NCBI RefSeq assembly: GCF_014274465.1
Contig: NZ_CP060394.1
Location: forward strand, 2,976,001-3,040,000
Length of the DNA: 64,000 nucleotides
Reading direction: 5' to 3'
Origin: Alloacidobacterium dinghuense
Lineage (GTDB): Bacteria; Acidobacteriota; Terriglobia; Terriglobales; Acidobacteriaceae
The position numbers were made by a program, and so were the translations under genes. Positions within the stretch are counted from its first letter, which is position 1; each line of letters starts with the position of its first letter. The notes beneath the pieces were generated by a model, which was not told the origin of the DNA, made no database searches, and saw only the letters and a program-made list of their open reading frames with translations. Positions 22,018 to 34,984 of the stretch are shown here, piece after piece.

Positions 22018-25000
22018 ATGAGCGTAGAGCAATATGTCGAAGCTGTCCGCAAGGATGAGGAGTTCATCCTGTATCGGGACGAGCATACAAACCAGCCCGG
22101 CTCACGATCCGTTCTCCGGCTGGTTCCTGCTTCCCTCCATCCGGCGCTCGAGACCCTGAAGAAGATAGAGCACGAATACTCCTTAAGGGATGAACTGGAT
22201 CCCGCCTGGGCGGTTCGGCCCTTAGCACTTTCCGATCACCGCGGGCAGACGGCGCTCTTGCTCGAAGATCCTGGCGGCGAAACTCTCGATCAATTCCTTT
22301 CAGAACCGATGCAAATAACGCGGTTCTTGCGCTTGGCTGTCGGTCTCGCAACGGCACTCAGCGGTTTGCACAAAAAGGAGCTGATTCACAAAGACGTAAA
22401 GCCTTCAAATGTTCTGGTTGACCCCGCGGGGCACGTCCGGCTGATGGGCTTCGGGATCGCATCGCGCCTTCCGCGAGAGCGTCAGGCGCCCAAGCCTCCT
22501 GAGTTCATAGCTGGAACGCTCCCCTATATGTCACCAGAACAAACCGGGCGAATGAATCGCTCGATTGATTCGCGGAGCGACCTCTACTCTCTAGGGGTAA
22601 CGCTTTACGAGATGCTTACCGGCGATCTTCCATTCGCGGCGTCCGATCCGATGGAATGGGTGCACTGCCATATTGCGCGACAGCCGATGCCACCAGGTGA
22701 ACGGATAAATGGCATACCTGGTCCGGTGTCGGCAATCATTATCAAGTTGCTGGCCAAAACTGCCGAAGACAGATACCAGGCAGCTTACGGCGTGGAGCGT
22801 GATCTTCAGCACTGCCTTGCAGAATTGGAAACGCAACATCGCATTGACGAATTCCCGCTTGGCAAACAAGACACGTCAGACCGACTGCTCGTTGCGGAGA
22901 AATTGTACGGGCGAGAATCCGAAATCGCCGCCTTGCTCGCCGCCTTCGACCGGGTTGTGGCTGACGGCAGCCCGGAGTTTGTTCTTGTCTCCGGCTACTC
23001 CGGTATCGGCAAGTCCTCCGTCGTCAATGAGCTTCATAAATCCCTTGTTCCTTCGCGTGGCCTTTTCGCATCGGGCAAGTTCGATCAGTACAAGCGCGAC
23101 ATCCCATATGCCACTTTGGCGCAGGCTCTTCAGAACCTTCTACTTCCGCTCCTGAGCAAGAGCGAGGTAGAGCTGAGCAAATGGCGCGACGCTCTTCATG
23201 AAGCGCTGGCTCCGAATGGTCAGCTCATTGTGGATCTGGTTCCCGAATTCAAGTTGATCATCGGGGAACAATTACCCGTTCCTGAACTTCCTCCACAAGA
23301 CGCGCAAGGCCGCTTTCAATTGGTGTTTCGTCGATTTATCAGCGTATTCACGCGGCCTGAGCACCCGCTAGTTCTGTTCCTTGATGATTTGCAATGGCTC
23401 GATACTGCAACGCTCGACTTGATCGAGGATCTTCTGACTCAACCGGATGTGCGGCATTTAATGGTAATCGGCGCATACCGGGATAACGAAGTCGATTCTT
23501 CCCATCCGCTCATGCGAAAACTGGAAGCGATCCGCCAGGTTCGGGCAAGCGTCCAGGAGATTGTCCTTGCGCCCTTGGCCGTTGAAGATTTGGATCTGTT
23601 ACTTGCAGATTCTGTTTATTGTGAACCGGAGCGTGCCACCCCGCTGGCTCAGCTAATCCACGAAAAAACCGCTGGCAATCCGTTTTTCGCTATTCAGTTT
23701 ATCTCTGCACTTGCCGAAGAGGGTTTACTCATCTTCGACCACGGCAATGGGCGATGGTTCTGGGACCTGAATCGCATTCGCGCCAAGGGTTACACCGACA
23801 ATGTGGTCGACCTCTTGATCGGCAAGCTGAATCGCCTGTCCGTCGAAACTCGGAATGCACTGCAGCTACTTGCGTGCATGGGCAACAGCGCGGCGTTTGT
23901 CCTGCTGGAGATGGCTTCCCAACACTCGAACGAGGAAGTACATGGCTGGCTTTGGGAGGCGGTTCGAACGGGCCTCATCTTCCGCATGGAAGATTCCTAT
24001 AGATTCCTGCACGATCGCGTCCAGGAAGCAGCTTATTCTTTGATCTCGGAAGAATTACGCGCGGAAGCCCATCTCCGAATAGGAAGGTTGCTAGCCGCGC
24101 ACACCCCACCAGAGAGTCGGGAAGAGCGTATCTTCGAGGTCGTCAACCAGCTCAACCGCGGTGCGGCCTTGATCACCGCGCGAGACGAACGTGAACAACT
24201 GGCCGAACTTAACCTGATCGCGGGCAAACGCGCTAAGGCCTCTGCTGCTTACACCTCAGCGCTCACGTATTTCACTGCCGGCACATCATTCTTAGGCGAT
24301 GACTCATGGAAGCGTCTGCATGAGCTCAGGTTCTCGCTGGAATTGAACCGGGCTGAGTGTGAGTTCGTAACCGGCCAGTCGGCGGCTGCAGAAGAGCGCT
24401 TGACCGTGCTTTCATCCCGCGCTTTGACCACGATCGAACTAGCAACCGTCACATGCTTGCAGGTCGATCTGTACACCAGCCTCGACCAGAATGACCGCGC
24501 CATTGCCGTCTGCCTCGACTACCTCCGGCATCTAGGCATGGAATGGTCGGCGCATCCGACAAAAGAAGAAGTGAAGCGGGAATACGCGGAGATCTGGTCA
24601 AGGCTCGGAGACCGCGACATCGAGGAACTTGTCGAGCTGCCGTTGATGAACAACCCGGTGTCCCTCGCAACACTGGATGTTCTGACCAAGGTATTACCAC
24701 CAGCATTGTTTTCGGATGCGAACCTGCTCTCCCTGGCCATCTGCAGGGCGGTCAACCTCAGCCTTGAGGGAGGAAACAGCGACGGCTCGTGTGTTGCCTA
24801 TGTATGGCTTGGTCAGATAGCCGGACCGCACTTCGGCGACTATAAGGCCGGATATCGATTCGGACTTCTCGGCTATGAGCTGGTCGAAAAACGAGGCTTG
24901 ACGCGCTTTCAGGCCAGGACCTCTATGGTCTTCGCATGTCACGTGCTGCCGTGGGCAAAACATGTCCGAGCTGGTCGCGATCTGATATATCAGACGTTCG

Positions 25001-27924
25001 AGGTCGCGAACAGGATTGGCGATCTCTGCTTTGCAGCGTTCAGCGGCATCAACCTCAACACACACCTGTTGGCTGCGGGAGACCCGCTGTCGCAGGTCCA
25101 GCGGGAGGCCGAAAATGGCTTCGAATTCGCGCGACGGACTCGCTTTGGTTTCGCCATTAACGTCATCAGCGTGCAGCTTGCCCTAATCCGGACCTTTCGT
25201 GGTTTGACGCCGGAATTTGGGCGTTTAGACGATGAACAGTTTGAGGAACAACGGTTCGAACGCCATTTGGGCAGCGACTCGGCACTGGCACAACCCGAGT
25301 GCTTTTACTGGATCCGAAAACTGCAAGCTCGCTTCTTCGCCGGGGATTACGTTTCCGCCGTGGATGCTTCATTGCATGCACAAAGATTGCTTTGGTCAGC
25401 TCCATCAAACTTTGAAGCAGTCGATTATCACTACTATGGCGCGCTCTCCCTCGCTGCATCCTGGGACTCTGCGTCTTCTATCGAGAAACAACAGACCATC
25501 GGCGCTCTGGCGGCACATCAACGGCAGCTTGAAGTCTGGACAGAAAATTGTCCGGAGAATTTCGAGAATCGTGCGGCGCTGGTAAGTGCAGAGATCGCAC
25601 GCATAGAGGGCCGTGTGATCGATGCCGAGCAACTTTATGAGAAGGCAATTCGCTCGGCGCACGAGAATGGCTTTATCCATAATGAGGCGCTTGCCAACGA
25701 ACTCACGGCACGATTTTACGCGGCGCGTGGTTTCGACAAGATCGCGGACGTCTACTTGCGTGATGCCCGCTACGGCTATCTCCGCTGGGGAGCCGGCGGC
25801 AAGGTGAAGCAGCTCGATCAGTTGTATCCACACCTCAAGAAAGAAGAACCCGCTCCCGGCCGCGCGAGAACAATCGTGGCGCCGGTCGAAGTTCTCGATT
25901 TGAGCACTATAATCAAAGTCTCGCAAGCCGTCTCGGGCGAGATGGTTCTGGAGAAACTGATCGACAGGATCATGCGAGCGGCCATCGAGCACGCGGGGGC
26001 CACGCGCGGGATTCTGATCTTTTCACGAGGTCATGAACTGCAGATAGAGGCGGAAGCCACCACTTCGGGAGACGATGTTACCGTGCACATGCGAGACGCT
26101 TCTGCTAGAGGAGTGGGGCTGCCGGAATCGCTCGTCCGCTATGTAATGCGGACTCATGAGAGAGTGATTCTTGATGATGCTTCATCACAGAACTGGTTTT
26201 CTACCGATCCCTATTTCCTTCAGCATCAAACCCGTTCTGTCCTCTGTTTGCCGCTGACTCACCAGGCAGAACTCACGGGTGTTCTGTATCTAGAAAATAA
26301 TCTAGCCTCCCACGTTTTTACTCCTGAGCGGACCACCGTGCTGAAGGTGCTTGCCTCGCAAGCAGCAATCTCGCTCGAGAATACGTGGCTTTATCGCGAT
26401 CTCGAAGACCGCGAAGCAAAGATTCGACGCCTGGTCGACGCCAATGTTCTGGGGATTTTCTTCTGGAATTTGGAAGGCGGCATCGTCGGGGCAAACGAGG
26501 AATTTCTGCGCATGGTGGATTACGATCGCGAAGATTTGGCCTCGGGTCGCGTACGCTGGACGGACCTGACACCGGAAGAATGGCGCAAGCGCGATGAACA
26601 GGCCATAGCAGACGTGATAAGGACCGGGAGCGTTCAGCCTTTCGAGAAGGAGTTTTTCCGAAAAAATGGCACCCGTGTTCCTGTACTCGTCGGCTCAGCT
26701 ATGTTCGAGGGAAGTAGGAGCGAAGGTGTGGCATTCGTGCTCGATTTGAGCGAGCAGAAGCGCGCCGAAGGGGAGATCAGAGCGCTAAAAGACCAACTCT
26801 ATCGAGAAAACCTCGCGCTTCACGACGCATACCGCGAGATTTCCGAGCTCAAAGAGAAATTGGTACAAGAGAAGCTCTATCTGGAACAGGAAATTCGCAG
26901 CGACATGGATTTCGAGCAGATCGTGGGAAACAGTCAAGCGCTCAAGCGCATCCTGCAACTGGTCGAAACCGTCGGCCCCAGCGATTCAACGGTTTTGCTG
27001 CTCGGTGAAACAGGAACGGGCAAGGAGTTGATCGCCCGTGCAATTCACGACCGCAGCGGTCGAAAGGATAGAACGTTTGTAAAGCTGAACTGTGCCGCGA
27101 TTCCAACCGGTCTTCTGGAGAGCGAATTGTTCGGCCACGAAAAGGGCGCCTTCACAGGCGCCATCGCGCAACGGATTGGCCGACTGGAGCTGGCCGATCA
27201 AGGAACGCTGTTTCTGGATGAGGTGGGCGACATCCCGATTGAAATCCAACCGAAACTTTTGCGGGCGTTGCAGGAACGGGAGTTTGAACGCCTCGGAAGC
27301 ACGCATACCCGTAAAGTGAACGTTCGCCTCATAGCCGCCACCAATCGCGATCTTGAGAAGATGATCGCAGCACGTGAATTTCGCAGCGATCTGTACTATC
27401 GGCTGAACGTATTTCCGATCCGGATTCCGCCGCTGCGGGAGCGCAAGGGAGATATTCCTCTGCTGGTGAGTTACTTTGTTCAAAAGTTCGCGAAACAGAT
27501 GCAGAAGAAGATCGACACCATTCCGGCAGCCGTGATGAAAGCGCTGGCGGCATGGGAATGGCTCGGAAATGTTCGCGAATTGGAGAATTTTATTGAGCGC
27601 GCAGTGATCCTGACGCGCAACAGCTCCCTGGAGGCGCCCCTTGCAGAGTTACGCAAGGTGAGAACCGAAGAACCTATGCAGGCTGCTTCAAATCACGACG
27701 ATGTGGTTCGCATAGTCAGAGAAACAATCAACGCTCTGCAAGGAAAGTACGGTGTTGCTGATGAACGTACCAATAAGCAGCGCGACGCAATTGTGCGCGC
27801 ACTCGCTGAAACTAAGGGACGCGTTGGCGGTTCCGACGGAGCTGCGGCGCGGATGGGCATCAATCGCACAACGCTCCTAGCCCGGATGAAAAAGTTCGGC
27901 ATCGATCCCAAGCAGTACGCCTGA
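22018..27924 (+). CDS. Giant sigma-54 activator: degenerate Ser/Thr kinase, AAA ATPase, GAF, PAS, NtrC-type AAA+ and Fis HTH
   Basis: The 1968-residue product joins a sensor of the Ser/Thr-kinase/AAA/GAF/PAS type to a transcription activator. Domains in order: protein-kinase fold (about 1-275) with HKDVKPSN (D126, N131) but GFG at 144-146 where DFG is expected and Arg34 at the usual beta-3 lysine, so it looks like a pseudokinase. Next is a predicted AAA ATPase (about 295-480) with Walker A GYSGIGKS (K332) and Walker B FLDD (456-457), then a helical TPR-like stretch to about 1280. GAF (about 1295-1455), PAS (about 1465-1580) and a coiled coil (about 1580-1630) follow. The sigma-54 interaction domain (about 1630-1870) has GETGTGKE (K1669), GAFTGA (1710-1715) and FLDE (1732-1735), and a Fis-type HTH ends the chain. 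GGAG precedes the ATG. In related proteins a histidine kinase takes the place of the sigma-54 module. It probably controls the genes downstream. Confidence 0.93.
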   Translation: MSVEQYVEAVRKDEEFILYRDEHTNQPGSRSVLRLVPASLHPALETLKKIEHEYSLRDELDPAWAVRPLALSDHRGQTALLLEDPGGETLDQFLSEPMQITRFLRLAVGLATALSGLHKKELIHKDVKPSNVLVDPAGHVRLMGFGIASRLPRERQAPKPPEFIAGTLPYMSPEQTGRMNRSIDSRSDLYSLGVTLYEMLTGDLPFAASDPMEWVHCHIARQPMPPGERINGIPGPVSAIIIKLLAKTAEDRYQAAYGVERDLQHCLAELETQHRIDEFPLGKQDTSDRLLVAEKLYGRESEIAALLAAFDRVVADGSPEFVLVSGYSGIGKSSVVNELHKSLVPSRGLFASGKFDQYKRDIPYATLAQALQNLLLPLLSKSEVELSKWRDALHEALAPNGQLIVDLVPEFKLIIGEQLPVPELPPQDAQGRFQLVFRRFISVFTRPEHPLVLFLDDLQWLDTATLDLIEDLLTQPDVRHLMVIGAYRDNEVDSSHPLMRKLEAIRQVRASVQEIVLAPLAVEDLDLLLADSVYCEPERATPLAQLIHEKTAGNPFFAIQFISALAEEGLLIFDHGNGRWFWDLNRIRAKGYTDNVVDLLIGKLNRLSVETRNALQLLACMGNSAAFVLLEMASQHSNEEVHGWLWEAVRTGLIFRMEDSYRFLHDRVQEAAYSLISEELRAEAHLRIGRLLAAHTPPESREERIFEVVNQLNRGAALITARDEREQLAELNLIAGKRAKASAAYTSALTYFTAGTSFLGDDSWKRLHELRFSLELNRAECEFVTGQSAAAEERLTVLSSRALTTIELATVTCLQVDLYTSLDQNDRAIAVCLDYLRHLGMEWSAHPTKEEVKREYAEIWSRLGDRDIEELVELPLMNNPVSLATLDVLTKVLPPALFSDANLLSLAICRAVNLSLEGGNSDGSCVAYVWLGQIAGPHFGDYKAGYRFGLLGYELVEKRGLTRFQARTSMVFACHVLPWAKHVRAGRDLIYQTFEVANRIGDLCFAAFSGINLNTHLLAAGDPLSQVQREAENGFEFARRTRFGFAINVISVQLALIRTFRGLTPEFGRLDDEQFEEQRFERHLGSDSALAQPECFYWIRKLQARFFAGDYVSAVDASLHAQRLLWSAPSNFEAVDYHYYGALSLAASWDSASSIEKQQTIGALAAHQRQLEVWTENCPENFENRAALVSAEIARIEGRVIDAEQLYEKAIRSAHENGFIHNEALANELTARFYAARGFDKIADVYLRDARYGYLRWGAGGKVKQLDQLYPHLKKEEPAPGRARTIVAPVEVLDLSTIIKVSQAVSGEMVLEKLIDRIMRAAIEHAGATRGILIFSRGHELQIEAEATTSGDDVTVHMRDASARGVGLPESLVRYVMRTHERVILDDASSQNWFSTDPYFLQHQTRSVLCLPLTHQAELTGVLYLENNLASHVFTPERTTVLKVLASQAAISLENTWLYRDLEDREAKIRRLVDANVLGIFFWNLEGGIVGANEEFLRMVDYDREDLASGRVRWTDLTPEEWRKRDEQAIADVIRTGSVQPFEKEFFRKNGTRVPVLVGSAMFEGSRSEGVAFVLDLSEQKRAEGEIRALKDQLYRENLALHDAYREISELKEKLVQEKLYLEQEIRSDMDFEQIVGNSQALKRILQLVETVGPSDSTVLLLGETGTGKELIARAIHDRSGRKDRTFVKLNCAAIPTGLLESELFGHEKGAFTGAIAQRIGRLELADQGTLFLDEVGDIPIEIQPKLLRALQEREFERLGSTHTRKVNVRLIAATNRDLEKMIAAREFRSDLYYRLNVFPIRIPPLRERKGDIPLLVSYFVQKFAKQMQKKIDTIPAAVMKALAAWEWLGNVRELENFIERAVILTRNSSLEAPLAELRKVRTEEPMQAASNHDDVVRIVRETINALQGKYGVADERTNKQRDAIVRALAETKGRVGGSDGAAARMGINRTTLLARMKKFGIDPKQYA

Positions 27925-27944
27925 TGTCCCATTCAGCCATGACT

Positions 27945-27963
27945 TGTCAGGATCGCGTTGACA
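27945..27963. promoter_or_regulatory. Inverted repeat TGTCA-N9-TGACA, candidate regulator binding site 2
   Basis: TGTCA-GGATCGCGT-TGACA is centred about 90 bases upstream of the -12 box of the sigma-54 promoter at 28031-28046, a normal enhancer distance. It shares half-sites, spacing and the 8-mer CGTTGACA with the site at 21880-21898. Confidence 0.58.
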
Positions 27964-28030
27964 GTCTCAACCCTCTCCACAGCTAAATTCAATCTTGCCT
28001 GAAAACACAATCAGTTATGCTCTCAGCGTT

Positions 28031-28046
28031 TGGCATATAACTTGCC
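28031..28046 (+). promoter_or_regulatory. Sigma-54 promoter before the STAS-like gene
   Basis: TGGCATATAACTTGCC has the -24 GG and -12 GC elements 10 bases apart with TGGCA and TTGC conserved. The expected start of transcription (about 28057) lies about 16 bases before the ATG at 28073, leaving room for its SD AAGGA. Confidence 0.68.
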
Positions 28047-28072
28047 CATGGGACGGTCAAGGACAGATGCGT

Positions 28073-28399
28073 ATGTTGAAGATCTCGGTTGTCGAAGACA
28101 CGCGCCGTCGCAGGCTGATTGTAGAGGGTAAGCTCGTCGCACCTTGGACCGTTGAGTTGACGACCGTGTGCGAGGCCGCCAAAGCGGGCCTTCATGAAGG
28201 GGAACTTATCGTCGATCTGAGGGGTGTAACGGCGATCAGTCCGGAAGGAGAACGCGTGCTACTGCAATTGATAAACGAAAAGGTCAAATTCCAGTGCGGC
28301 GTGTTTATGAAGGAGGTCTTACGACAACTCGCCCGCAAGAGCCAGAGGAGCCCACAGGGTGTGGTCAAGAAAGCATCCGATGAGGACTCAAATGGCTGA
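28073..28399 (+). CDS. STAS-like (anti-sigma-antagonist fold) small protein
   Basis: The 108-residue product resembles a STAS domain: LKISVVEDTRRRRLIVEGKLVAPWTVELTTVCEAAK, then GELIVDLRGVTAISPEGERVLLQLINEKVKF. In phosphorylatable STAS proteins the loop reads DSSG; here the matching residues are SPEG, so the switch serine is missing and regulation by phosphorylation is doubtful. The tail (about 85-108) is basic then acidic. The ATG at 28073 was chosen because AAGGA lies nine bases upstream and agrees with the predicted sigma-54 start site. Assignment to STAS is moderate. It sits between the large regulator and the crotonase gene, with its own sigma-54 promoter. Confidence 0.7.
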   Translation: MLKISVVEDTRRRRLIVEGKLVAPWTVELTTVCEAAKAGLHEGELIVDLRGVTAISPEGERVLLQLINEKVKFQCGVFMKEVLRQLARKSQRSPQGVVKKASDEDSNG

Positions 28400-28423
28400 A
28401 CGTGATGGCAACGAAACCGTTAC

Positions 28424-28457
28424 GACAGCTGTCAACGTCAACTCAACAGTTTTGACA
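28424..28457. promoter_or_regulatory. Candidate enhancer: palindrome plus half-sites of the shared repeat
   Basis: GACAGCTGTC (28424-28433) is a perfect palindrome overlapping TGTCAACG (28430-28437), the exact reverse complement of the CGTTGACA in sites 1 and 2. A second half-site, TTTTGACA, is at 28450-28457. The group is centred about 100 bases upstream of the -12 box at 28541. The second half does not pair at the N9 spacing, so this site is looser than the other two. Confidence 0.45.
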
Positions 28458-28527
28458 CCGAGATGGTAGCCGGCGGCCGCGTTTGACCGATTCACTCGAT
28501 ATCAATCGTTTACCACAAGCTCGGAGT

Positions 28528-28543
28528 TGGCACGAGCATTGCA
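28528..28543 (+). promoter_or_regulatory. Consensus sigma-54 promoter before the crotonase gene
   Basis: TGGCACGAGCATTGCA matches the full consensus TGGCACG-N4-TTGCA. It stands 150 bases before the GTG start of the crotonase-like gene and directs transcription into the redox operon, leaving a leader of about 140 bases. Confidence 0.82.
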
Positions 28544-28692
28544 ATATAGGTTTCTGTCCACGATGAAAGAGCGATTCGTATAAACAGTTGAACGATGCCC
28601 ATGACTCTATCAGGCGTTTCGGAAGAAAAAATCCGCAAGCCTTCGGCCAGGAGCGATTCAACCCGAGCAAGTAAACCAGAAAGGAGAAAGCT

Positions 28693-29469
28693 GTGCACGC
28701 ACTACAAACGGAATACTTCGATGCCTATCGCAGCCTGAAGCTGACACGAGACGCCAACGGTGTTCTTATTGCCGAATTTCACAGTAACGGCGGCCCGTTC
28801 ACTTTTGCCGCGCAGGATCACACGGAGATTGTGGATGCCTTTTACCGGATCTCGCAGGATCGGGCCAACAAAATCGTGATCCTAACGGGCGCAGGTGGAG
28901 GCTTCATTACTGGTGTCGAATGGCCATCGTTCGGTAACGTATCGGATCCGGGAGTTTGGAGCCAAATTCACGACGAAGGCGTTCAGGTTCTGGAAAACAT
29001 AGCCAACATCCGTGTGCCGGTCATCGCGGCGATCGAGGGACGCGCCCATGTGCACTCCGAGTACGCCCTACTAGCAAATGTGATTGTGGCGGCGGAGGGT
29101 GCGACGTTCCTGGATGGGGCGCACTTTGCCGCCGGCGTAGTGCCGGGCGATGGGATCTTTACCACCTGGAGTTATCGCGCCGGAGCGGGGCGGGCGGAGG
29201 CGTTCTTGCTTAACCCACAGCCGTTGCCCGCGCGCACGGCCTATGAATGGGGAGTGGTTGCGGAGGTTGTGCCGAACGGCAAAGCGCTCAATCGGGCGCA
29301 GGAATTGGCCGGCCTGTATTTGAAGGCTCCCGAGGTGACGCGCCGCAACACGCGTGTGCATTTCATTCAACCACTGAAAGAGCGCATTGTGCGAGAAGTT
29401 GGATATGGACTGTCGCTTGAAGGAGCTTCGGCAGCCGATCTCGTGAAAATCAAAGGAAGCCAAGGCTGA
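28693..29469 (+). CDS. Crotonase-superfamily enzyme, 6-oxocamphor-hydrolase-like
   Basis: The 258-residue product is a crotonase-fold protein. Its core, VPVIAAIEGRAHVHSEYALL then ATFLDGAHF and GVVPGDG (about 108-155), resembles 6-oxocamphor hydrolase, a retro-Claisen enzyme that cleaves the C-C bond of cyclic beta-diketones. H121, H144 and D153 fall where that enzyme has His122, His145 and Asp154 by my recalled alignment. The CoA-binding pattern of true enoyl-CoA hydratases is not obvious. The GTG start at 28693 has AAGGAG at good spacing. It is the first gene after the consensus sigma-54 promoter. Beta-diketone hydrolysis is the favoured role; enoyl-CoA hydratase/isomerase is the alternative. 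Confidence 0.8.
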   Translation: MHALQTEYFDAYRSLKLTRDANGVLIAEFHSNGGPFTFAAQDHTEIVDAFYRISQDRANKIVILTGAGGGFITGVEWPSFGNVSDPGVWSQIHDEGVQVLENIANIRVPVIAAIEGRAHVHSEYALLANVIVAAEGATFLDGAHFAAGVVPGDGIFTTWSYRAGAGRAEAFLLNPQPLPARTAYEWGVVAEVVPNGKALNRAQELAGLYLKAPEVTRRNTRVHFIQPLKERIVREVGYGLSLEGASAADLVKIKGSQG

Positions 29470-29634
29470 ATTAGTGGCTCAGTGAAGAAAATCTGCATGA
29501 AGAGACTTCATTCTTCGAGTTCCTCAAGACATGCTCAAGCCGGGCTGGATCTGCAGATGATCCGATCGAGCCACTAGCGCATGCCCTGGAGAACAGATGT
29601 TTCAAAATAGGCGCGATTTGAAAAAGGAGAGGAC

Positions 29635-31107
29635 ATGACCACTAGGCAAAATACTTCTTCACCTCAGCCACCTCGAAAAGGCGGCCCCGAAGAATACGAT
29701 CTGGTCATTCTTGGCGGCGGCACGGGAGGCACAATCGCCGCCTGGACCTTCGCCGGCCAGGGACAGCGTGTCGCAGTGATCGAACGCAAATACATCGGCG
29801 GATCCTGTCCGAACATCGCCTGTTTGCCGAGCAAGAACATCATTCACAGTGCGAAGGTTGCCTCATACCTGCGCAGAAGTGAAGAGTTCGGCATTGCCAC
29901 AAGAGACTTCGCAGTCGATATGCGCACAGTTCGTGAACGTAAGCGCAGGATGGTTTCGGGTTGGAATGAAGCTTACCTAGGCAACTACGAGAAGAGTGGA
30001 GCGGAGTTCATCCTCGGATCCGGACGCTTCGTCGGCCCCAGAACGCTGGAGGTTACACTTCCTGACGAAACAACGCGTCAACTCCGGGGAGCCAATGTGA
30101 TCGTGAATACTGGCACGCACGCTGCCTTTGAGCCAATTCCCGGCCTTGTTGACGCGCATCCCCTGACACACATCGAAGCACTGGAACTGGATGAAGTACC
30201 CGAGCATCTTCTCGTCATCGGCGGCGGCTACATTGGTTTGGAGATATCCCAGACAATGCGCCGCTTCGGCAGCAAAGTGACTCTGATCGATCGCAATGAC
30301 CGCCTCTTGCATCGAGAAGACGACGACGTAACGGAAGCGCTTCAAAACCTGTTTGACGACGAAGGAATTGAGGTCGCGCTGAACGCACGGCTCAAACAGA
30401 TATCCGGGAAGTCTGGACAGTCGGTCAGAATCCTTGTCGAAAAAAATGGGACCGAAAAGACGCTGGAGGGCAGTCATCTGCTGGTCGCAGCGGGCCGCGC
30501 TCCGAATACCCGGGAAATCGGACTGGAGCTTGCCGGCGTCGAACTCACCGAACGCGGCTACATCAAGGTGAATGAGCGCCTGGAGACCACGGCGCCGGGA
30601 GTTTGGGCGATCGGCGAGGTAGCGGGCAGCCCGCAGTTCACCCACGTAAGCGTCGACGATTTTCGTGTAGTTCATGCCAGCCTCACTGGCGGCAAACGTG
30701 TGACCACAGGAAGACAGGTACCATTTTGTCTTTTCACCGATCCAGAATTGGCCCATATCGGCCTGAGTGAAAAGGAAGCGAAAGCACAAGAGATCAGCTA
30801 CCGATTGTTCAAGGTTCCGATGGAAGCGGTAATGCGTGCGAGCACGATGTCAGAAACGCGAGGATTTTTGAAAGCCTTGGTCGCTGTTGACGAAGACCGC
30901 ATTCTAGGCTTCACGGCTCTCGGTGTTGGCGCGGCCGAGATCATGACTTCGGTACAAATTGCGATGGGCGCTGGGCTGGCCTATACCGTGCTACGCGACA
31001 CCATTCTGACTCACCCAACATTGGTTGAGGGGCTGATACCGCTGTTTACATCTACGCCGTCGGTGCGGAACGCTGCCGAGGCGGCACTAACAAGAGCTTC
31101 TGCTTAA
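29635..31107 (+). CDS. FAD-dependent pyridine nucleotide-disulfide oxidoreductase, RclA/mercuric-reductase-like
   Basis: The 490-residue flavoprotein has an FAD-binding GGGTGG (about 25-30), the redox-active pair C58/C63 in GGSCPNIACLPSK, an NAD(P)H-binding GGGYIGLE near 198, and the C-terminal dimerisation domain. The stretch QFTHVSVDDFRVVHASL, the segment ASTMSETRGFLKALV and the end AYTVLRDTILTHPTLVEGL resemble E. coli RclA, the reactive-chlorine-resistance flavoprotein. No heavy-metal-associated domain or C-terminal Cys pair of MerA is present. AGGAGAGG precedes the ATG. The DUF417 (RclC-like) gene three genes on supports the Rcl comparison. A lipoamide-dehydrogenase-type role is unlikely as no dehydrogenase complex genes are near. 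Confidence 0.88.
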   Translation: MTTRQNTSSPQPPRKGGPEEYDLVILGGGTGGTIAAWTFAGQGQRVAVIERKYIGGSCPNIACLPSKNIIHSAKVASYLRRSEEFGIATRDFAVDMRTVRERKRRMVSGWNEAYLGNYEKSGAEFILGSGRFVGPRTLEVTLPDETTRQLRGANVIVNTGTHAAFEPIPGLVDAHPLTHIEALELDEVPEHLLVIGGGYIGLEISQTMRRFGSKVTLIDRNDRLLHREDDDVTEALQNLFDDEGIEVALNARLKQISGKSGQSVRILVEKNGTEKTLEGSHLLVAAGRAPNTREIGLELAGVELTERGYIKVNERLETTAPGVWAIGEVAGSPQFTHVSVDDFRVVHASLTGGKRVTTGRQVPFCLFTDPELAHIGLSEKEAKAQEISYRLFKVPMEAVMRASTMSETRGFLKALVAVDEDRILGFTALGVGAAEIMTSVQIAMGAGLAYTVLRDTILTHPTLVEGLIPLFTSTPSVRNAAEAALTRASA

Positions 31108-31174
31108 GTAAGGCTGGACTGAGGAAGTTTTCATCGCGGAATAGATCCTCCAAGAAGCTATTAAAGAGCTTGCC

Positions 31175-31885
31175 ATGACCAAGTGCATCATCATTACCGG
31201 AGCATCAAAGGGGATCGGCCGCGCGGCCGCGAATGTTTTAGTAGAAGAGGGTTGGTCAGTGATAGGCGTCGCTCGCAGTTCCCCGCAATCGTTCCCGGGC
31301 ACCTTTATCGAGACAGATCTCGCAGACCAGAATCAGACCCAAGCTCTCGCCAACGATTTGGCCGCTCGCGGGAATGTCCTTGGGATTGTCAACAATGTCG
31401 GCATTGCCAGGCATGAAGCGATTGACACAGTGGATCCAGAAGCGTTCGCTGCGGTCATGGATTTGAATGTTCGCCCAGCGCTGCAGCTCACTCAAGCTCT
31501 TTTGCCCTGCATGCGAGCCGCGCGGTTCGGCCGCATTATTAACGTAACCAGCCTGGTTACTCGCGGGTTCGCATTTCGTTCAAGTTACGCAGCAGCAAAG
31601 GCAGCGCTAGAAAGCCTGACGCGCACTATGGCGATTGAGCTTGCAGCCGACGGCATTACTGCAAACGCCGTTGCGCCAGGCCCGACGGAAACCGAGCTAT
31701 TCCGTGCCAACAATCCGCAAGGTAGTGAAGGAGAGGCCCGCTATTTGAGCAAAGTGCCGATGAAACGGTTCGGACAACCCGTGGAGATTGCGGCGGCGAT
31801 TGCATTTCTTGCAGGGAAGAAAGCGGCGTTCATCACAGGCCAAACGTTATTTGTAGATGGGGGCGCAAGCCTCGGGACTCTCTAG
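31175..31885 (+). CDS. Short-chain dehydrogenase/reductase
   Basis: The 236-residue product is a classical SDR. It has the cofactor motif TGASKGIG (about 8-15), NNVG (about 75), catalytic Ser near 127 in NVTSLVTRG, YAAAK (about 140-144) and the C-terminal FITGQTLFVDGG. Residues after strand beta-2 (ARSSPQS) suggest NADP preference, but this is tentative. It lies 67 bases after the RclA-like gene and probably shares its transcript. Reduction of a carbonyl stress product would fit the neighbours; the substrate is unknown. Confidence 0.9.
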   Translation: MTKCIIITGASKGIGRAAANVLVEEGWSVIGVARSSPQSFPGTFIETDLADQNQTQALANDLAARGNVLGIVNNVGIARHEAIDTVDPEAFAAVMDLNVRPALQLTQALLPCMRAARFGRIINVTSLVTRGFAFRSSYAAAKAALESLTRTMAIELAADGITANAVAPGPTETELFRANNPQGSEGEARYLSKVPMKRFGQPVEIAAAIAFLAGKKAAFITGQTLFVDGGASLGTL

Positions 31886-31890
31886 TGCCA

Positions 31891-31942
31891 ATCGCCGAGA
31901 AAAATGAGGCGATTTTCGCATTCTTAAACATGATCGCCTTTT
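31891..31942 (+). promoter_or_regulatory. Three-segment alternative hairpin with T-tract, attenuator-like
   Basis: ATCGCC (31891-31896), GGCGAT (31908-31913) and ATCGCC (31933-31938) allow two mutually exclusive stems. The downstream one, AGGCGAT with ATCGCCT, is followed by TTTT and resembles an intrinsic terminator. The upstream one would prevent it. It lies between the SDR and the CMD-family gene. Stems are short (6-7 bp) and the terminator loop is long (19 bases). Confidence 0.3.
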
Positions 31943-32041
31943 GCTATCAGTCTGATTGAAACATACGACGGATCATCTCACCGCTTGAAGGATCTACTGA
32001 TCTGTACGGCGTTGAAATCGCCGAACCAGGAGGAAAAAGAC

Positions 32042-32602
32042 ATGAGCACCACAACCGACGCACTCTACACACCATTAACTATTGCGAACGCCCCTGAGGC
32101 TTCCAAGCCTGTGCTTGAGAACATTCAGAAGTCTTTCGGCTTTATCCCGAATCTGATGGCCACTTTTGCCAATAACCCGACCGTCCTGCAAGGCTATTTG
32201 TCGCTGGATGCCGTTTATGAGAAGGGCTCCTTCACTCCCAGGGAACGACAACTAATTCTGCTGACAGCAAGCGTAGAGAATCAATGCAACTACTGCGCAG
32301 CCGCGCATTCCACGGTCGCGAAAGGTGCCCTCCACACGCCAGCTGAGGTCGTAACCGCGATTCGTAACAACACGCCGGTGCCGGATAAAAGACTCAATGC
32401 TCTCGTGAGTCTGGTGAAAGAACTTGTTCGTGAGCGCGGCTATGCCAAGGAAGAAACCATTCAGAACTTCATCGCTGCTGGCTATAAGAGGGAGCAGGTG
32501 ATGGAGCTGCTGCTTGGCATTGCTCTCAAGACCATCAGCAATTATCTAGACCACATCTCACCCGCGCCTATCGATCAGGCATTCGCGGCAGAAAGTAAAT
32601 AA
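32042..32602 (+). CDS. Carboxymuconolactone decarboxylase family protein (AhpD-type, peroxidase-related)
   Basis: The 186-residue product has the CMD/AhpD helical fold and the redox motif CNYC (C82, C85) with His three residues on in AAAH, as in alkylhydroperoxidase-like proteins. NIQKSFGFIPNLMATFANNPTVLQGYLSLD is typical of the longer, peroxidase-related subgroup. The ATG at 32042 has AGGAGG at good spacing; an upstream in-frame start is less likely. It sits between the SDR and DUF417 genes. A role in removing organic peroxides fits the operon; no direct AhpC partner is in the window. Confidence 0.88.
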   Translation: MSTTTDALYTPLTIANAPEASKPVLENIQKSFGFIPNLMATFANNPTVLQGYLSLDAVYEKGSFTPRERQLILLTASVENQCNYCAAAHSTVAKGALHTPAEVVTAIRNNTPVPDKRLNALVSLVKELVRERGYAKEETIQNFIAAGYKREQVMELLLGIALKTISNYLDHISPAPIDQAFAAESK

Positions 32603-32614
32603 TCGCTTTTTGTT

Positions 32615-32642
32615 CCGGAATGCGGCTGATGCCGCATTCTGG
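32615..32642 (+). promoter_or_regulatory. Strong intercistronic hairpin next to the DUF417 ribosome-binding site
   Basis: GAATGCGGC and GCCGCATTC pair perfectly (9 bp) around a TGAT loop, extended by one wobble and two G-C pairs to 12 bp. The 3' arm ends in the GG that begins the purine-rich SD region GGAGAAAGGA of the DUF417 gene. No T-run follows, so RNA stability or translation control is more likely than termination. Confidence 0.5.
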
Positions 32643-32659
32643 AGAAAGGACAGCACGTC

Positions 32660-33181
32660 ATGAACTGGCTTATCAACCTTCTAGCAAAAACACGCCTTCT
32701 CAAGGGAGACCTGGACTACCATCTCGTCCGCGCATCGATGGTCATCATCTACTTCTTCTTTGGGTATCAGAAGTGGTTTGATTATGAAGCACAGGGACTC
32801 ATTCCATTCTTCACCCATGGGCCGCTGATCTTCTGGATGTACCCGGTCTTCGGCATCAAAGGCTCCTCTTACTTCCTGGGTGTTTCCGAATGGCTGTTTG
32901 GAGCGTTGTTGCTCGCCGGTTTCTGGAACAAGAAACTCGGGGTGTTGGGAGCTCTCGGCTCGGTGTTTACCTTCATTACGACAGTCACGATCATTCCCTT
33001 TATGCCAGATGGTTGGGCGCCGTCCGCAGGCGGATTCCCTGCAATGGTGGGCAACGTTGCATTTCTGATGAAAGACGTGGTTCTGTTGGCAGTATCGATC
33101 TACCTTCTGAAACAGGACCTTGTCAGAGTCCTCGAACACGATACAGCTAGAGCCTCACTTATCGCTGAACCTGCGCGATAA
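32660..33181 (+). CDS. DUF417 family membrane protein, RclC/YkgB-like
   Basis: The 173-residue product has four hydrophobic segments and the DUF417 hallmarks FFGYQKWFDYEAQGLIPFFTHGPLIFWMYP and YFLGVSEWLFGALLLAGFWNKKLGVLGALGS. E. coli RclC (YkgB) belongs to this family and is an inner-membrane protein of the rclABC reactive-chlorine-resistance operon. Its presence in the same operon as an RclA-like flavoprotein is the main reason to suggest an oxidant-defence role here. The ATG has GAAAGGA upstream, next to a strong hairpin. The molecular function of DUF417 proteins is not known. Confidence 0.88.
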   Translation: MNWLINLLAKTRLLKGDLDYHLVRASMVIIYFFFGYQKWFDYEAQGLIPFFTHGPLIFWMYPVFGIKGSSYFLGVSEWLFGALLLAGFWNKKLGVLGALGSVFTFITTVTIIPFMPDGWAPSAGGFPAMVGNVAFLMKDVVLLAVSIYLLKQDLVRVLEHDTARASLIAEPAR

Positions 33182-33196
33182 GAGGCAGAACTTCAG

Positions 33197-33222
33197 AGGG
33201 GGCGTACACTTGCATACCCCCT
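33197..33222 (+). terminator. Possible stem-loop terminator after the DUF417 gene
   Basis: AGGGGG and CCCCCT pair around an inner region that adds GTA/TAC with a small bulge, 16 bases after the DUF417 stop codon. No T-run follows, so termination would need Rho or be weak. Confidence 0.3.
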
Positions 33223-33366
33223 GGCTCTCTTCACCTTGGATAAACGATAACGGCCCAGTAGAGCTTGGCATGGCGGGTATTGATGTGATGTCCCGCCATC
33301 GAGACAGGCACCACTCGTCTTGACAGGCGATCAAAATCAGAGTTTCCCTAAAACAAGGAGCTGGGT

Positions 33367-33627
33367 GTGTCTAACAAGTTTGCAGGAAAAACCGCTGTCA
33401 TTACGGGTGCGTCCACTGGCATGGGCCTTGCCACCGCGAAGCGATTCGTTCAGGAAGGCATGGATCGTGTCTTTATGACGGGTCGCCGCAAGGAGGCACT
33501 GGATGCCGCCGTTGCTGAGATAGGAAAGAATGTCACGGCAGTGCAGGGGCGATGTTGCCAGCCTAGGCGATCTTGACCGCCTATACGAGGCAGTCCAAAA
33601 ACGGAACGGTAAAGTCGACACCATCAG
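33367..33627 (+). pseudogene. Frameshifted and truncated short-chain dehydrogenase
   Basis: From a GTG at 33367 with AAGGAG upstream, the frame encodes an SDR N-terminus: [17 protein letters not shown], then [24 protein letters not shown]. At the G4 run 33546-33549 one extra base breaks the frame; the next frame continues the same protein as [29 protein letters not shown] sequence stops near 33627, where the minus-strand neighbour begins. The NNxG, catalytic Ser and YxxxK parts are absent. It is therefore a remnant of a gene of about 250 residues that once followed the DUF417 gene. A sequencing error could explain the frameshift but not the truncation. Confidence 0.85.
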
Positions 33628-34510: not shown

Positions 34511-34648
34511 CATCATTTCCTCCAGTCTCAGTCTTAGATGCTGCGATTTTGCGATAGATTTTTTCTGTGTCATGTAAAAATCAGGCGAGTTTTGCATGCC
34601 CACCGGAGTTTGTCCCAAATCGGTAACCTTGCTTGCTACACTGATTCC

Positions 34649-34984
34649 ATGTTAGATGAGCTTACTTTCCGCAAAAATGCGGATGCTGCGATTGAGTCTC
34701 TCAAGAAAAGCTTAATCGCTGCTGAAGAAGATAGCGACTTCGAGGCCGAGGAACAGAACGGTGTGCTAAATATTGTCTTTGACGAGCCGCCTGCGAAATT
34801 CGTCATTACCCCCAATACTCCTGTGCGCCAGATATGGATTTCTGCGCTTTCAACCAGCTTCAAGCTGGACTGGTCTGATGAGGAGAGCACGTTTATCCTG
34901 CCAAAGGACGGCACTCAACTCAAGCCCTTGGTCGCGCGCCTTATCAACGAGCACCTCGGCACGGATTCCGTCACCCTGCAGTGA
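34649..34984 (+). CDS. cyaY: Frataxin-like iron donor protein CyaY
   Basis: The 111-residue product matches bacterial frataxin in length and layout: an acidic helix (ELTFRKNADAAIESLKKSLIAAEEDSDFEAEEQNGVLNIVFDEPP), then strands with VITPNTPVRQIWISALSTSFKLDW and a C-terminal helix LKPLVARLINEHLG. CyaY binds iron through the acidic helix and modulates iron-sulfur cluster assembly by IscS. The ATG at 34649 gives the family length; no strong SD is seen. The stop overlaps the start of the glycosyltransferase gene. No isc genes are in the window. Acidobacterial sequences are divergent, so the assignment is good but not absolute. Confidence 0.82.
   Translation: MLDELTFRKNADAAIESLKKSLIAAEEDSDFEAEEQNGVLNIVFDEPPAKFVITPNTPVRQIWISALSTSFKLDWSDEESTFILPKDGTQLKPLVARLINEHLGTDSVTLQ

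Follow-up and report, generated by a model that had tools for sequence, protein, structure and literature searches.

Within a 64,000-nucleotide stretch of the Alloacidobacterium dinghuense genome (contig NZ_CP060394.1; hereafter the window), five collinear open reading frames (ORFs) on the + strand, at 28693-33181, lie downstream of the gene for a large sigma-54 activator. We regard this gene set as probably a sigma-54-dependent stress operon that serves as a redox and carbonyl detoxification module. A perfect sigma-54 promoter stands before it, the first product is by sequence a CoA-independent beta-diketone hydrolase, and the second belongs to a flavoprotein family near Escherichia coli RclA. 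A first-pass annotation had proposed an RclA/RclC-like oxidant or electrophile defence operon under a novel regulator, an interpretation that our analysis supports in part.

Gene layout and probable sigma-54 control

All five ORFs of the proposed run exist and score above the Pfam cut-offs: ECH_1 (PF00378, 69 bits), Pyr_redox_2 and dim (201 and 89), adh_short_C2 (174), CMD (PF02627, 43) and DUF417 (PF04224, 98). The upstream sigma-54 activator with GAF and PAS domains is likewise real, with a kinase-like domain and an AAA_16 domain found besides. The features of the locus are the following, where paired scores give the match and its cut-off.

22018..27924, + strand: sigma-54 activator, 1968 aa (Pfam domains, motifs)
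28031..28045, + strand: -24/-12 like site TGGCATATAACTTGC before the STAS-like ORF, 1 mismatch
28073..28399, + strand: small STAS-like ORF between regulator and operon (homologs; Pfam STAS below cut-off)
28528..28542, + strand: perfect sigma-54 promoter TGGCACGAGCATTGC, 150 bp ahead of the operon's first codon (consensus match)
28693..29469, + strand: beta-diketone hydrolase by sequence, crotonase superfamily (PDB matches, catalytic residues)
29635..31107, + strand: class I flavoprotein disulfide reductase of a family near RclA (Pfam, NCBIfam, tree, cysteines)
31175..31885, + strand: short-chain dehydrogenase/reductase, SDR (Pfam; PRK07577 292.9/310 bits)
32042..32602, + strand: AhpD/CMD-family protein with CxxC and following His (Pfam, NCBIfam, sequences of solved structures)
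32660..33181, + strand: DUF417 membrane protein, by sequence a diverged RclC relative (Pfam, 27% identity)
33361..33625, + strand: remnant of a second SDR, shortened and with a frame change (blastx)

Judged by its sequence, the regulator is a sigma-54 activator (bacterial enhancer-binding protein, bEBP): it carries a Sigma54_activat domain, its AAA+ domain contains GAFTGA, a -24/-12 promoter lies nearby, and RpoN is present in the genome (one Sigma54_DBD gene in 6.27 Mb on a single contig, to which all genome-wide counts refer). Pfam resolves kinase-like, AAA_16, GAF, PAS and Sigma54_activat domains, with a TPR match just below cut-off (25.1/27 bits). The kinase domain is degenerate, retaining HKDVKPSN and showing GFG instead of the usual DFG, and the C-terminal end resembles by eye a Fis-type helix-turn-helix, which Pfam does not call.

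Giant regulators of this kinase-like-AAA_16-GAF-PAS type number five in the genome (G000:C1 530463, 2503955, 3674118 and 3684233, and the window's at 22018-27924). Three have GAFTGA and two do not, which we read as a possible case of one sensor with exchangeable outputs. At E 1e-200 the type was found in 6/120 genomes of the family. It also occurs near homologs of the flavoprotein at four loci from Verrucomicrobiota metagenome bins (L123, L154, L157 and L159), L123 being possibly misbinned.

The promoter TGGCACGAGCATTGC at 28528-28542 agrees fully with what we take to be the -24/-12 consensus of sigma-54. The exact TGGCACGNNNNTTGC pattern has 7 occurrences in the 6.27 Mb, compared with 4 for a reversed control pattern; the six other exact matches all fall inside ORFs of 148-650 aa, and the one considered here sits between the STAS-like ORF and the operon, where the only overlapping frame is a 75-aa antisense ORF. 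A consensus promoter in this position fits control of the operon by the adjacent activator. A simple scan of 27900-33614 gave no sigma-70 site, which is weak evidence, and a search for repeats that might serve as activator sites gave just short or weak pairs. The inverted letters TGTCAA...TTGACA at 28430 are a by-eye guess at such a site.

The extended form of the 28031 site, TTTGGCAYN5TTGC, is found 6 times in the genome and the reversed control once. One copy precedes another STAS-like ORF, which is followed by ORFs that resemble those of an efflux pump, and the activator beside it is 78% identical to the window's over the AAA+ and C-terminal part. Elsewhere in the genome, two homologs of the window's STAS-like ORF (52% and 30% identity) both lie behind sigma-54 activator genes; the ORF itself is below cut-off for Pfam STAS (11.9/22.6 bits), and its product may act as a modulator. 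Small STAS-like proteins with sub-cut-off Pfam matches or none were seen repeatedly behind sigma-54 activators (L253:1389-1661, L235:1162-1470, L231:1477-1845), so that they are possibly a general partner of these regulators.

The first gene as a beta-diketone hydrolase

Of the names originally given to the five products, flavoprotein, SDR, CMD and DUF417 stand by their Pfam matches, and crotonase gives way to beta-diketone hydrolase. Among PDB sequences the first gene product is closest to Anabaena ALR4455 (2j5g, 222 bits), followed by 6-oxocamphor hydrolase (171 bits), whereas entries named enoyl-CoA hydratase reach 52.5 bits at most. Excerpts of PMC3584854 make the case that 3q1t, the top entry of the latter, is a diketone hydrolase too, and give D153, H144, E243 and H43 as the catalytic residues of the Anabaena enzyme. 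Using a mapping that assumes a 10-residue offset of the deposited ALR4455 chain, after which the numbers coincide, H43, D141, H144, D153 and E243 are conserved in the window's protein. The catalytic H43, H144, D153 and E243 are identical in 11/11 aligned rows. As an enoyl-CoA hydratase the protein was considered and rejected, with low PDB scores and with the cut-offs missed for the best 25 of 60 matched NCBIfam families (highest 83.6/292 bits). On this basis the first gene encodes a CoA-independent beta-diketone hydrolase, predicted from its conserved catalytic residues to hydrolyse 1,3-diketones, and not a crotonase of CoA metabolism. The re-annotation offers a concrete, testable substrate class.

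A catabolic role for this enzyme is a serious rival, although we hold it unlikely. The hydrolase and the SDR would then degrade a plant- or terpene-derived diketone as food, with the activator working as an XylR/DmpR-like substrate sensor. 6-Oxocamphor hydrolase, the second-best solved relative, is a terpene-degradation enzyme, sigma-54 activators often run catabolism, and genes for SDRs and alpha/beta hydrolases are found clustered around that of the flavoprotein. However, none of the five operon products matches an oxygenase, uptake or beta-oxidation family in Pfam, the annotated neighbours of homologs on four plasmids include no pathway, and the flavoprotein, DUF417 and CMD proteins suit defence better. 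Detoxification is the reading that we prefer.

A flavoprotein family near RclA and its partners

The flavoprotein contains cysteines C58, C63 and C365 only, with C58/C63 as the redox pair, and H460/E465; E. coli RclA likewise has three cysteines. In a sequence comparison with solved structures the flavoprotein comes closest to E. coli RclA (274 bits, 36% identity), followed by hypothiocyanous acid reductases at about 240 bits and a lipoamide dehydrogenase at 239. On the NCBIfam RclA equivalog NF040477, whose cut-off is 740 bits, it scores 355.8, and its best-scoring NCBIfam model is PRK06370 (391/629 bits).

In a tree of 44 rows (midpoint root; two partial rows and one row not extracted were omitted), the window's family forms a group of 27 rows with support 100/100. 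Its nearest neighbour in the tree is a group of nine rows of other FAD oxidoreductases (96/89), and the two together are sister to RclA and one Leuconostoc protein (96/90). Outside this RclA-containing clade follow one MerA (97/91) and then Lpd, SthA and Gor. Because of the midpoint root and the long MerA, Gor and Lpd branches, the deep branching order is less certain than the separateness of the family. The tree had been set in advance as the check on whether the protein falls among lipoamide dehydrogenases or mercuric reductases, and it places the protein outside both. Lipoamide dehydrogenase was also rejected on its model (TIGR01350, 364.6 bits against 408.8).

Taken together, the tree, the identity, the missed equivalog cut-off and a fold search that does not separate RclA from Lpd lead us to treat the flavoprotein as kin to RclA without filing it as RclA. 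By sequence it is a separate family near RclA, not an RclA ortholog, and it may work like RclA. Its nearest named matches are mostly acidobacterial. The genome also holds an extra copy at G000:C1 2004429-2005820 (65% identical, one internal stop), beside efflux-pump-sized ORFs (L053), and broken pieces of another at G000:C1 5769731-5770500.

The DUF417 protein exceeds the PF04224 gathering score clearly (98.4 bits against 27), and is by sequence a diverged RclC relative rather than an RclC ortholog (27% identity; NF040476, 66.4 bits against 275). Its AlphaFold model is all-helical (pLDDT 82.5), and neither Foldseek (best E 1.3) nor a sequence search found a solved relative. The CMD protein probably starts at 32042, an ATG after AGGAGG-type letters seen by eye, and not at the listed TTG 31985. 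It belongs by sequence to the AhpD/CMD family, with a CMD domain, the CxxC C82 and C85, and a His; AhpD-type structures are closest, and it scores below cut-off on TIGR01926 (63.7/81.8) and above it on ahpD_dom (31.8/27.8). A second DUF417-CMD pair lies elsewhere in the genome (L058:7337-8660), its proteins 33% and 32% identical to the DUF417 and CMD proteins of the window, and a 388-aa frame with two tandem DUF417 matches occurs in G108 (L256:86-1252).

An SDR 85% identical to the window's is found behind a beta-diketone hydrolase in L255. The SDR remnant at 33361-33625 matches by blastx at 73% over 67 aa and then continues in a different frame; in L251 and L255, intact relatives of it stand between a sigma-54 activator and a beta-diketone hydrolase. 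A Frataxin/CyaY-like domain protein (71.9 bits) is encoded at 34538-34984, a short way downstream of the operon.

Relatedness to RclA and RclC, as first claimed, therefore holds, RclA being the best solved match, and orthology does not, given the two equivalog scores. The operon as a true Rcl system, with RclA and RclC orthologs defending against HOCl and HOSCN under a replaced regulator, is accordingly improbable to us. Its case rests on RclA as the best solved match by sequence, the tree position beside the RclA branch, the three cysteines with two forming a redox pair, and two plasmids where same-family flavoproteins adjoin Rcl-like genes. The Acidisarcina plasmid has the order AraC, cupin, DUF302, flavoprotein, DUF417, its DUF417 protein being near RclC grade (243.6/275 bits on the RclC model); on the Paraburkholderia plasmid a CMD gene and, behind it, the flavoprotein gene run divergently from the gene of an AraC regulator that matches RclR in part (130.5/400 bits). 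Opposed to this, the NCBIfam equivalog cut-offs are missed widely, the nine-row group of other oxidoreductases is closer to the window family than RclA is, and host-made HOCl is an unlikely main signal in a soil habitat. The window also yielded no tblastn match at E 0.1 to E. coli RclB, to a 258-aa part of RclR or to two further AraC proteins, in line with the first pass, which had not seen RclB and RclR.

Metal resistance by a mercuric or copper reductase is very improbable, even though homologs on plasmids are annotated 'mercuric reductase' and a P-type metal ATPase stands beside a homolog in Chelativorans, as the flavoprotein misses the MerA model (TIGR02053, 344.8/454 bits), lacks the C-terminal CC pair that Roseovarius MerA has at 471-472, lies apart from that one MerA row in the tree, and has no mercury-transport or MerR-type family around it among nine ORFs scanned with Pfam.

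Recurrence of the gene neighbourhood

Neighbours of the flavoprotein were counted at 74/80 named loci (L142, L151, L170, L178, L181 and L182 left out), and those of the hydrolase at 10/11 loci of the family sample, leaving out the contig-end fragment G059:C191 and, separately, the neighbours in G296 (L265). Because some genomes are shared between the collections (L102 and L134 seem to be one 7185-bp contig), counts from different collections are not to be summed.

The linkage of DUF417 to RclA-like genes, for which a neighbourhood analysis had been suggested, recurs: within 4 kb of the flavoprotein, DUF417 is found at 11 of the 74 loci, SDR at 19 (a count without background control) and zinc alcohol dehydrogenase at 12. 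DUF417 is uncommon, being present in 16/120 family genomes. At E 1e-150 or better, 4/19 flavoprotein matches have DUF417 within 2 kb (G000, G040, G072, G117), the copy of G040 containing a stop. TMEM175-type channel genes were noticed near the flavoprotein in two acidobacterial clusters (L145:7740-8369, L100:5622-6290).

Sigma-54 activators of a two-GAF type lie 3.4-8.3 kb upstream of the flavoprotein, on the same strand, at 5/74 loci (L121, L131, L145, L148, L150), hosted by Granulicella mallensis, Edaphobacter lichenicola, Silvibacterium bohemicum and two metagenome bins. They are 71-79% mutually identical, and Pfam found two GAF stretches in all three that were scanned. Alpha/beta hydrolase and SDR genes stand between activator and flavoprotein, with DUF417 in the three isolates. 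Different activator types therefore meet the flavoprotein module, the two-GAF type in these five loci and the other at the window. Coupling to a sigma-54 activator had been described as an independent solution to sensing oxidants or reactive dicarbonyls; the sigma-54 link is upheld by a fitting promoter, but 'independent' needs a qualifier, since activators of different types lie near such clusters in several acidobacterial loci.

The hydrolase has matches in 8/120 family genomes and, at a stricter cut, in 2/396 genomes of the phylum. At 4/10 loci (window, L251, L253, L255) a sigma-54 activator lies on the same strand within 2 kb upstream. L251 and L255 have an SDR plus one or two further ORFs between activator and hydrolase, and L255 contains an AhpC/TSA match; in L253 the activator is followed by a 10/10 promoter site, a STAS-like ORF and then the hydrolase. 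Hydrolase and flavoprotein are direct neighbours in L114 and L127, and in L102 a glyoxalase-family ORF lies between the two.

With a looser sigma-54 weight matrix, built on the published consensus when some sites were already known, sites scoring at least 11 were found at 5/7 loci with an activator versus 5/67 without (Fisher p 0.0003); each of two controls gave 1/7 and 1/67. This enrichment at activator loci is suggestive only.

Several observations weigh against the proposed sigma-54-dependent stress operon. The window's exact gene order was not found in any locus looked at, and its own gaps of 165 bp before 29635 and 156 bp before 32042 could hold other promoters. Strict sigma-54 sites (at least 9/10 positions) occur at 5/72 flavoprotein loci compared with 7 and 2 in two controls, and such sites were rejected as a general mark of the family, the strict pattern not being enriched. 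Scanning the 500 bp upstream of 11 hydrolase loci gave a perfect site for the window alone (L049, in the same genome, has 9/10), and 6/10 loci have no activator within 2 kb upstream, some contigs being short. Between the STAS-like ORFs of L253 and the window identity is 17%, with no blastp match. A CMD gene appeared once in the 74-locus profile scan, in L148 and farther than 4 kb from the flavoprotein; outside the window it stands beside the flavoprotein only in L112 and on the Paraburkholderia plasmid. The Acidisarcina AraC protein matches no NCBIfam model at 1e-20. Finally, a Foldseek search with the AlphaFold model of the flavoprotein (pLDDT 81) returned Lpd chains as the first six hits and RclA as the seventh.

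Proposed function

Mechanistically, the GAF/PAS and AAA_16 part of the activator would read a signal, most likely an oxidant, an electrophile or a toxic carbonyl, and its AAA+ domain would open RNA polymerase-sigma-54 at 28528-28542; the 28031 site before the STAS-like gene would probably be served likewise. An oxidant or dicarbonyl is a plausible inducing signal because the partners recur in reactive-chlorine regulons and redox clusters. Once expressed, the hydrolase would cleave 1,3-diketones independently of CoA, and the RclA-akin flavoprotein, going by its superfamily, would reduce a small oxidised substrate with NAD(P)H and the C58-C63 pair. The SDR would reduce carbonyls, the AhpD-like protein with its intact CxxC may remove peroxide or reactive chlorine, following the precedent of Pseudomonas aeruginosa RclX, and the DUF417 protein would be the membrane partner in this clean-up module. 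Sigma-54 control would hold the operon tightly off until the signal arrives, so that its promoter could serve directly to report the activator's ligand.

More speculatively, Acidobacteriota might have an oxidant/electrophile response class of their own, a possibility to which we lean less than to its absence. GAF-sensing sigma-54 activators (two-GAF, or giant kinase-like-AAA_16-GAF-PAS with exchangeable outputs) would have taken over an RclA-akin/DUF417/SDR module that on other replicons stands beside AraC or LysR genes, and one branch would have added the CoA-independent beta-diketone hydrolase as a new detoxification step. The RclA-akin family often has DUF417 alongside, in Acidobacteriota and beyond, and so offers independent systems for learning the function of DUF417.

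Comparison with known systems

The operon resembles E. coli rclABC-rclR in combining an RclA-type flavoprotein, with a CxxxxC redox pair, and a DUF417 protein in one operon. It differs in the low identities (only 36% for the flavoprotein and 27% for DUF417), in RclB and RclR not being found in the window, and in adding the diketone hydrolase, the SDR, the CMD protein and the sigma-54 promoter. In E. coli, RclB and RclC matter for HOSCN resistance, and excerpts of the same work describe the action of RclB, and that of RclC and other DUF417 proteins, as unknown even there (PMC12096828). Another DUF417 membrane protein, RcrB of uropathogenic E. coli (UPEC), is required for HOCl resistance according to parts of PMC9600549; it is under the TetR repressor RcrR, and its partner rcrA is given there as of unknown function.

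P. aeruginosa RclR drives the AhpD/CMD protein RclX, which is required against HOCl and HOSCN as reported in portions of PMC7950407. The likeness to the window's CMD protein is at family level, a CxxC protein used there against these two oxidants; RclX differs as a single gene under an AraC regulator. We take RcsA of P. aeruginosa, the subject of PMC9751292, to be probably the same gene as RclX.

Among the papers listed from the open-licence literature on DUF417, on RclA/RclC, on RclA in acidobacteria, and on RpoN and reactive chlorine, none was seen to deal with an acidobacterial system of this kind, and the papers listed on such hydrolases showed none inside a redox gene set. The window's hydrolase shares its sequence family and the conserved H43, D141, H144, D153 and E243 with Anabaena ALR4455 (2j5g/2j5s) and 6-oxocamphor hydrolase, and differs by sitting in a redox gene set. 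The activator, which misses the cut-offs of all 25 NCBIfam models among the matches listed, has in common with the NorR/FhlA type the GAF and AAA+ sigma-54 module, to which it adds kinase-like, AAA_16 and TPR-like parts.

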